Of a stretch of 64,000 nt of DNA, positions 29,449-31,942 are shown one piece after another. The number at the start of each line of letters is the position of its first letter. The stretch's first letter is position 1. Made by a program: the position numbers and the translations under genes. The notes under the pieces are model-generated. The model was not told where the DNA came from. It was given only the letters and a program-made list of their open reading frames with translations, and did not search any database. Source of the stretch: Methanobacteriota archaeon (lineage in GTDB: Archaea; Thermoplasmatota; Thermoplasmata; UBA10834); contig CP070748.1 in assembly GCA_020348345.1 (NCBI GenBank), forward strand, positions 1,567,682-1,631,681. Reading direction: 5' to 3'.

Positions 29449-29607
29449 TTAGGGGTTATCGTCGGTCTTCTTCTCGTTCTCCTTGCTGCGCCGATACATC
29501 GTACCACAGACTGAACAGACGTCGACCTCCTCCTCACCCGTCGATTTATCTGCAATGATCTTCAATACGCATGCGCCGTCGCACATGGGACACTTCTTAT
29601 CCGACAT
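29449..29607 (-). CDS. 52-residue zinc-ribbon protein
   Basis: This tiny protein has two zinc knuckles, CPMC (C6, C9) and CSVC (C31, C34), around a short beta segment, with a charged C-terminus. The ATG overlaps the end of the hef gene and has a near-perfect AGGAGG Shine-Dalgarno 7 nt before it, so it is translated from the hef message. The family is not recognised. Its position between hef and rpoL suggests a nucleic-acid-related role, but that is only inference. Confidence 0.7.
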   Translation of the reverse strand: MSDKKCPMCDGACVLKIIADKSTGEEEVDVCSVCGTMYRRSKENEKKTDDNP

Positions 29608-31942
29608 TGGAAACCTCCTCCTTTCCGAACTTCCTACGCATCACAGTATGAATTCCCTGGGCAATAACCCTTCCCACACCCTCAACTTCCATAAGTTGCT
29701 CGGGACTCGCATCCGCAATGCCCTTCACGCTTCCAAAGCGTTCAAGCAGCCTCTGGGCGAGGGTGGCGGATACATTGGGCAGGCCCTGGACGAGGAAGAG
29801 CTGTCTGCCATCGGGGTCTAGCGTTGTCTGGAGGTTCCTGGCGCCACCCGCAGCTCGTCCGGCTTCCTGTCTATAGAGCGCTCTCAGTGCGGCAACGGTC
29901 TCCGATGTGTTGGTGGTTGAGAGCATGGGCATCCTGAACTCCGATAGCAGCGAACCAAGCGCATCGTACACTGCCGCGTTTCCAGCTTCTACGCCTTTCC
30001 CCTCCGGCGGCCCCTGGACGATCAATATCGGATGTAGAAACTGGTGTTTCATCTTCGCAAGGGAGGAGAATAGGCTCCCATCGGACATGTCCTCGATGAA
30101 CTCTTGAACGCTTCTTATCGATACGGCCACTCTATCCGAGACGACGATATCGGCGAATTCCAACCTTATCGCATTGAAGGAAAATCCTGCTTCTGCCAGC
30201 TCCCGCAGCAAAGCGGAACCTTCCAGCGCGTCCGAGACAGCAAGCGATGGCGCCTCGCTGGCATCTTCCTTGCCATACTCTGAGAGCGATTTCTGGCCAG
30301 CGGCTTCGGCCAATCTCTGAGAGAGCTGTTCCCTCTCCGTGAGCCTCTCTGAGGTCATTAGCTCAGATATCCCCTCCTTTCTTCGCCGGCTGCCACGAGA
30401 TGGCGTCTCAGGCAGACCTCTGCGCGCTCTCAGCTTCTTTCTGAGATTCTCGAGCTCTCGTTTCATCTGAAGCTCCTTTCTGCGTGAGGACCAGAAGTAA
30501 GCCTCATCCTTTGTGTCTCGGGTCATCAGTATGATGACCCTCCCTGCACGCCCGCGTCCCGTTCTCCCTCTCCTCTGGATGGTTCTTATCTCGGATGGAA
30601 CAGGTTCGTAGAAGATCACGAGATCCGTTGATGGGATGTCCAGTCCCTCTTCCGCGATGGAAGTTGCAACGAGAACGTTATGCTCTCCTCTATGGAATTT
30701 CTCGATCACCTCACGCTGCTCTTTCTGTTTGAGCCCGACATCCTCGCCTTTGCTCGCCTGCCCGACGAAGCGGGCCGGTCGCAGCCCATCAACGTGCGCC
30801 AAGCGATCAGTAATCAGGTCGCAGGTGTCTCGGTAATGGGTGAAGACTATCACACGAGATTCGGGGTTCGAGATGAACTGCGTCTTCAGTATAGGCAACA
30901 ACTTCTCCAATTTGGGATGGTCCGTGGTCATCTTGTACAGCTCGTTCCTCGCCATTTCGAATCGAGCATCTTTGACGAGGCTCCTGACCGCCTTGGATCG
31001 TTTGTTCTCCTCTGCAAGGTTGATCTGCTTCTGGAAGTAGTTCTCGAGAGCGCCTCTTCCTTGGGTCTCTGCCAGCTCGATGCCATGGTTCACCTTCATC
31101 GCGAGGGCTTGAACGCTGGCTATCTTGAATAGATTGTACGATTTCTTGCCGGAATTGAGCTGCGCTCTGATCGTCGCTCCGGCGGTCAACAGGTCGCGAG
31201 TCGTAACTGGCTTCTTGGGATCGAGGAAGCCCGCCGCTCTGAGTTTGGCAACCTGCTCGTCCAGTATCTGCCTGAGAAGAGCGACTATTCTGGCCATTCC
31301 TTCCTGCATAGGTACTCCTATGAACTCCGTTCTGATGTCCTGGGTGTATTCCACCACATCTTCGTCGAGCTCTGATCGTATCTCCACCCATGCTATCCCC
31401 AGATTCTCGCACACATCCGCTATCTTCGACACATCGGAGCCTGGCGACGCGGTCATGCCCAGTACAAGACAGTCGCGTTCCAACAGAGCCTTGCCAATAG
31501 GGACATATGAGTAATCGCCGACGGCACGGTGCGCCTCGTCAAACACGACCAAGTCGAATCCGGAGAGGTCAATTGCGCCTGAATCCAAATCGTTGGCCAC
31601 AACCTGAGGGGTGGAAACGACAACCCGGGCGCTAGTCCACACGTTTCTTCTGTCCTCAGGCTGGATCTCTCCCGTGAAGACCTCCGGTTCGAAGCCGATC
31701 AGATGCTCTCTCAAGAACTTGGCGTGCTGTTCCACAAGCGGTTTGGTGGGCGCCATGAACAACACGGTCCCCTTCTTGGCCCTCAGCGTCTCCGCTATCA
31801 CAAACAGCGCAACAACGGTCTTTCCCATGCCAGTGGGTAGAACCACCAACGTCGATTCGCTCAGTGCAGCCTGGGCGATGTTGGATTGATAATCCCTGAG
31901 CTCTATGCTCTGGGGCTTGATCAGATCGTGCTCGAGGAACAC
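29597..31942 (-). CDS. hef: Hef/FANCM-like helicase with degenerate XPF nuclease domain
   Basis: This 781-residue protein follows archaeal Hef. A superfamily 2 helicase (Walker A GMGKT 38-42, DEAH 135-138, a thumb-like insert, and motif VI QRRGRTGRGRAG) is followed by an ERCC4-type nuclease domain (about 585-690) and tandem helix-hairpin-helix motifs (about 700-765). Hef processes stalled forks and flaps. In active Hef the nuclease site is GD-Xn-ERK-X3-D; here the corresponding region is ADIVVSD then VAVSIRSVQEF, with S608-I609-R610 where ERK is expected and Glu for the last Asp. Nuclease activity is therefore probably lost, as in eukaryotic FANCM. The start is GTG. Confidence 0.92.
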   Translation of the reverse strand: MFLEHDLIKPQSIELRDYQSNIAQAALSESTLVVLPTGMGKTVVALFVIAETLRAKKGTVLFMAPTKPLVEQHAKFLREHLIGFEPEVFTGEIQPEDRRNVWTSARVVVSTPQVVANDLDSGAIDLSGFDLVVFDEAHRAVGDYSYVPIGKALLERDCLVLGMTASPGSDVSKIADVCENLGIAWVEIRSELDEDVVEYTQDIRTEFIGVPMQEGMARIVALLRQILDEQVAKLRAAGFLDPKKPVTTRDLLTAGATIRAQLNSGKKSYNLFKIASVQALAMKVNHGIELAETQGRGALENYFQKQINLAEENKRSKAVRSLVKDARFEMARNELYKMTTDHPKLEKLLPILKTQFISNPESRVIVFTHYRDTCDLITDRLAHVDGLRPARFVGQASKGEDVGLKQKEQREVIEKFHRGEHNVLVATSIAEEGLDIPSTDLVIFYEPVPSEIRTIQRRGRTGRGRAGRVIILMTRDTKDEAYFWSSRRKELQMKRELENLRKKLRARRGLPETPSRGSRRRKEGISELMTSERLTEREQLSQRLAEAAGQKSLSEYGKEDASEAPSLAVSDALEGSALLRELAEAGFSFNAIRLEFADIVVSDRVAVSIRSVQEFIEDMSDGSLFSSLAKMKHQFLHPILIVQGPPEGKGVEAGNAAVYDALGSLLSEFRMPMLSTTNTSETVAALRALYRQEAGRAAGGARNLQTTLDPDGRQLFLVQGLPNVSATLAQRLLERFGSVKGIADASPEQLMEVEGVGRVIAQGIHTVMRRKFGKEEVSNVG

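Follow-up and report, generated by a model that had tools for sequence, protein, structure and literature searches.

The hef locus and the architecture of its product

The window, by which we mean the whole 64,000-nucleotide stretch of DNA that was analysed (G000:C1:1567682-1631681), is part of a 1.70-Mb genome in a single contig that is rated 86.8% complete. Its reverse strand carries a hef gene with the following features:

29597..31942, (-): hef gene, whole ORF including the stop codon; 781 aa, GTG start, one unbroken frame
31427..31915, (-): helicase RecA-like domain 1, residues 10-172 (Pfam DEAD/ResIII)
residues 35-42, 135-138 and 164-168, (-): domain 1 motifs Walker A LPTGMGKT, DEAH and TASPG (motif positions)
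30956..31273, (-): helical insert separating the two helicase domains, residues 224-329 (Pfam PF21210)
30554..30904, (-): helicase RecA-like domain 2, residues 347-463, with motif VI QRRGRTGR at 456-463 (Pfam and motif positions)
30275..30295, (-): PIP-box-like motif QKSLSEY in the linker, residues 550-556 (QxxLxx[FYWH]-type pattern)
29873..30244, (-): ERCC4/XPF-type putative pseudo-nuclease domain, residues 567-690 (Pfam ERCC4 36.8 bits, cut-off 24, and fold model)
30101..30154, (-): degenerate catalytic motif ADIVVSDRVAVSIRSVQE, residues 597-614 (active form GDxxxS..xVERKxxxD)
29633..29821, (-): (HhH)2, tandem HhH (HHH_2/HHH_5; 52% identity, 0.9 A to 1x2i)

The protein matches the NCBIfam Hef model PRK13766 over residues 2-772 with 794 bits (cut-off 610), its Pfam matches are DEAD, Helicase_C, ERCC4 and HhH, and residues 6-493 match the Pfu Hef helicase structure 1wp9 with 414 bits. 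The motifs I, II, III and VI of SF2 FANCM/Hef-type helicases are all present, and the helicase is fused to a C-terminal ERCC4 domain followed by (HhH)2, which is the architecture of Hef. As far as the sequence can tell, neither the helicase nor the HhH part is damaged, in line with the original prediction; by descent and architecture the protein counts as an orthologue of Hef, though not as a canonical helicase-nuclease of that type. Its named relatives, with 61-79% identity, are encoded by MAGs of uncultured Thermoplasmata or 'Euryarchaeota'.

Motifs of the QxxLxx[FYWH] type occur in 108 of 110 Hef linkers, against about three expected from shuffles. Contacts between Hef and PCNA are described for Thermococcus, Pyrococcus and Thermoplasma (PMC7776575), and T. 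acidophilum Hef is reported there, by way of citation, as a PCNA binder (cited in PMC7776575). The PIP-box-like motif of the window Hef is a candidate site for the same contact.

A 52-aa ORF with two CxxC pairs (CPMC...CSVC) lies at 29449-29607 (-) and shares 11 bases with the 3' end of hef; it is followed on the same strand by the genes for RNA polymerase subunit L and TruD, with which it possibly forms one transcription unit.

Loss of the catalytic site

The ERCC4 domain of the window Hef departs from the GDXnERKX3D active-site motif of Hef. Exactly as had been claimed, S608-I609-R610 stands in the place of ERK and Glu614 in that of the last Asp (597-ADIVVS, 608-SIRSVQE-614), all within one unbroken frame; the original prediction had passed over the changes in DxRE, in the glycine of GD, in GRLF and in EG. 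GD reads AD (Gly to Ala, with Asp598 kept), DxRE reads S-D-A-L with Ser in place of the first Asp, GRLF has become GSLF, and VQG stands where (I/V)EG is conserved. Within the metal-binding pair of XPF/MUS81 nucleases the GD Asp is present as Asp598 and the ERK Glu is replaced by Ser608; in a comparison protein the metal is held by D715, E725 and the backbone of R726 (the numbering of that protein, not of the window Hef). Judging from these residues, the domain is devoid of what is needed for metal binding and catalysis and is probably inactive, and the retained Asp598 together with the Lys-to-Arg exchange may permit some residual or altered metal chemistry.

Extent and age of the loss

The original prediction was to be supported if all close relatives lacked ERK as well, and they do. 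The triplet is absent from 20 of 20 readable copies of the order, namely 18 of 18 distinct copies of the window's own family (f1) and both copies of the sister family (f2). The idea that the loss is limited to one genus was dropped, both families of the order having it. In all 18 f1 copies the DxRE Asp is Ser, the DxRE Glu is aliphatic, the ERK Glu position is uncharged (A/T/S/I) and EG has become QG. The ERK Arg position is occupied by V/F/I/L, Lys has changed to Arg in 17 of the 18, and the X3D position varies (E/Q/D/S/A). The GD Asp is the sole catalytic-motif residue kept throughout f1, and it is invariant in f2 too. In the two f2 copies the ERK Glu is Ile and Val, respectively, in a pattern that differs from f1 (IKE, VRE).

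A separate observation concerns window residue 642, the Glu of (I/V)EG, which adjoins the former active site and is Gln in every f1 copy: this is a fixed change and not simple random decay.

The comparison set, sampled outside the order by surveys of the class and the phylum, holds 112 other distinct ERCC4 domains of the phylum. D and E are kept in 111 of these, and ERK is complete in 110. Every catalytic residue is retained by 63 distinct fused Hefs outside the order, while 48 distinct standalone XPF domains outside the order retain D, E, K and the last D. A low ERCC4 score was rejected as a sign of a dead domain: Hefs of family f46 go down to 68 bits yet keep GD..ERK..D.

The single exception among the 112 is L205 (G333:C277:4414-4749; same phylum, other class), a fused Hef with AD for GD, RRL for ERK, a terminal E and Ala in place of the DxRE Asp, residues that support a dead motif. 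L205 is possibly an independent loss; we do not count it as a second one, for the tree leaves its placement open and a grouping with the order is compatible with the data (p-AU 0.24).

In a tree built from the helicase only, bootstrap/SH-aLRT support is 100/100 for f1, 100/99 for f2 and 99/94 for f1+f2, with the joint clade nested among class Hefs that either bear ERK or consist of the helicase only. The simplest reading, and the most likely one, is a single loss before the two families split; in view of the differing residues there may have been two losses inside the clade. Nested as it is among ERK-bearing archaeal Hefs, the loss is most likely independent of that in FANCM.

Hef variation across Thermoplasmata

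Among 300 Thermoplasmata genomes that are at least 80% complete, 277 have a match to the Hef-type helicase, and ERCC4 is present in 74; comparison of the two lists indicates that roughly 200 of the 300 have the helicase without ERCC4. Hefs of the class commonly lack the nuclease, usually by absence of the whole domain, and the window's order is the case in which the domain persists in dead form. Since roughly 200 of the 300 genomes are helicase-only, a Hef without cutting activity is evidently viable in this class, which makes the dead domain less surprising and a motor-only Hef more plausible. Helicase-only Hefs (e.g. the Thermoplasma type) share with the window protein the class, a related helicase and, presumably, the inability to act as a Hef nuclease. 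Their ORFs, about 520-560 aa long, lack the C-terminal nuclease domain entirely, whereas the window protein keeps the dead domain with (HhH)2. A whole order has pseudo-nuclease Hef only, next to many class relatives without a detectable ERCC4 domain. Our literature search returned no described dead or nuclease-less Thermoplasmata Hef, a weak negative given its limited coverage of papers.

Several Thermoplasmata families (L040, L041, L042, L131-L165) encode a standalone XPF of 190-330 aa with ERK intact, which occurs beside either a full-length or a helicase-only Hef.

Comparison with Hef, FANCM and non-catalytic XPF proteins

The window protein shares its domain order (helicase, linker with PIP-like motif, ERCC4, (HhH)2) with the archaeal Hefs of Pyrococcus, Thermococcus and Haloferax, and the fold of the nuclease domain is predicted to be the same. 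Modelled with AlphaFold2 (mean pLDDT 81, pTM 0.57, with the relative placing of the two domains uncertain), residues 556-781 superpose on the Pyrococcus Hef nuclease domain 1j22 with a TM of 0.90 by target length and 1.8 A, and on the Pyrococcus Hef HhH domain 1x2i with 0.9 A; the model also matches Aeropyrum XPF and FANCM-FAAP24. Relatives that bear ERK were among the sequences in the underlying alignment, and the predicted fold partly depends on them. What sets the window protein apart is the replacement of DxRE...GD...ERKX3D, the described Hefs having helicase and nuclease domains that are both active (PMC3905845).

FANCM likewise fuses an SF2 helicase/translocase to a dead ERCC4 domain with (HhH)2, the window protein being placed in this category by sequence only, and the two share the exchange of Lys for Arg in ERK and of the terminal Asp for Glu. 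The FANCM motif is CDXnERRX3E, with the Glu kept, and FANCM-FAAP24 is without detectable nuclease activity (PMC3905867). The parallel with FANCM drawn in the original prediction therefore stands for the dead ERCC4 domain on a helicase, but the loss goes deeper here: the ERK Glu that FANCM keeps is gone, as is the DxRE Asp. A FAAP24-like partner was not found, with one ERCC4 domain per genome, and the window Hef is expected to form a homodimer. The likeness to FANCM is one of working principle, not of membership, and extends to an outline of function that we infer. ERCC1, EME1, EME2 and FAAP24, the non-catalytic members of the XPF family, also have the ERCC4 fold without the catalytic motif; unlike the window's dead domain, which is fused to the motor, they are separate chains that partner a catalytic or motor subunit.

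Constraint on the putatively dead domain

The ratio of ERCC4 to helicase divergence is 2.31 in f1, and two families that bear ERK have 1.02 and 1.28. In four closely related pairs with unsaturated silent sites (drawn from L004/L006/L007 and L014/L015), dN/dS lies at 0.22-0.31 for the ERCC4 domain and at 0.09-0.15 for the helicase. Both comparisons are simple ones, by Nei-Gojobori and by distances. Because of these two results, constraint on the f1 domain is read as relaxed, not removed; purifying selection persists.

The faster evolution could be slow decay, and at its extreme the domain would be a functionless remnant on its way to deletion, as in most Thermoplasmata Hefs, with the helicase alone mattering. 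The doubled rate is as expected of such a remnant, as are the free variation at the lost positions (A/T/S/I, V/F/I/L) and the common occurrence of helicase-only Hef in the class. We nevertheless hold this to be unlikely, because the readable copies, from five genera, all have the domain at full length (f1 and f2 being about 45% identical overall), the (HhH)2 that follows shows good conservation, and 22 of the domain's 124 positions are invariant in f1, among them the new AD and VQG that are absent from active Hefs. Nor does it look like a pseudogene, with an unbroken frame and a domain dN/dS well below 1.

More improbable still is a domain that continues to cut, through a site rebuilt from Asp598 and shifted acids or with an altered metal or substrate preference. 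The invariance of Asp598 in both families, the similar Arg in place of the ERK Lys in nearly all f1 copies and the several invariant positions nearby would suit such an enzyme; on the other hand, none of the other active-site acids is both present and constant in f1, f2 has also lost the ERK Glu in a pattern of its own, and FANCM retains more of the motif with undetectable nuclease activity (PMC3905867). An error of sequencing, assembly or frame, for which only the MAG origin of the genomes speaks and which had been named as grounds for refutation, has a negligible chance, since the frame is unbroken and 19 more independently assembled copies of the order show the same loss.

Candidate nucleases and a model for the order's Hef

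A search for ERCC4 in 21 genomes of the order gave one match in 20 of them and never two, so that no second XPF/MUS81-type domain was found in this set. The separate XPF-like nuclease that might have received the hand-over suggested in the original prediction was thus not found; a hand-over to another kind of nuclease survives, with Hjc as the visible candidate. Hjc is encoded in 18 of the 21 genomes, including all four with a completeness of at least 90%, and the residues E, D and ExK are present in the two copies read. The copy in the window's genome scores 26 bits with NCBIfam (cut-off 70) and 42.5 bits with Pfam (cut-off 21.1), its probable orthology resting on the Pfam match and the residue pattern. 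FEN1/XPG is likewise found in 18 of 21. UvrC, NucS (NucS_C) and DUF790/Bax1 were each found in 0 of the 21 genomes, despite positive controls that gave matches, and were discarded as substitute cutters; the genomes are MAG-derived and that of the window is 86.8% complete, which means that these absences are not absolute. Loss of hef together with hjc is synthetically lethal in Haloferax volcanii (PMC3905845), and Hjc is therefore the natural candidate here. Reasoning from that analogy, it is most plausibly the cutter for the order's Hef, whether the hand-over would be physical or functional.

The reading that we favour, and regard as probable, is that of a genuine Hef orthologue turned FANCM-like: a PCNA-tethered translocase of forks and junctions with a pseudo-nuclease module, whose cutting is left to other enzymes. 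The SF2 motor would act on stalled forks and junctions by binding and remodelling them, with ATP-dependent fork reversal or branch migration suggested by its intact motifs, and the linker would tether the protein to PCNA. The dead ERCC4 domain would be retained with (HhH)2 as a folded platform for dimerisation and junction binding, and the remodelled junctions would be cut by a nuclease of another family, as no other XPF/MUS81-type domain was found in the order's genomes. A more specific version, which we put forward tentatively and with rather less than even expectation, is that the order independently reached a FANCM-like state in which the dead ERCC4 domain serves as a recognition or recruitment module at junctions, delivering remodelled forks to Hjc in lineages without XPF/MUS81-type, UvrC, NucS or Bax1 nucleases.

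The favoured reading of a FANCM-like translocase would make the order's Hef a natural separation of motor and cutting functions and an archaeal parallel to FANCM. In this clade the cutting of forks and junctions should rely on Hjc or on a yet-unrecognised nuclease.
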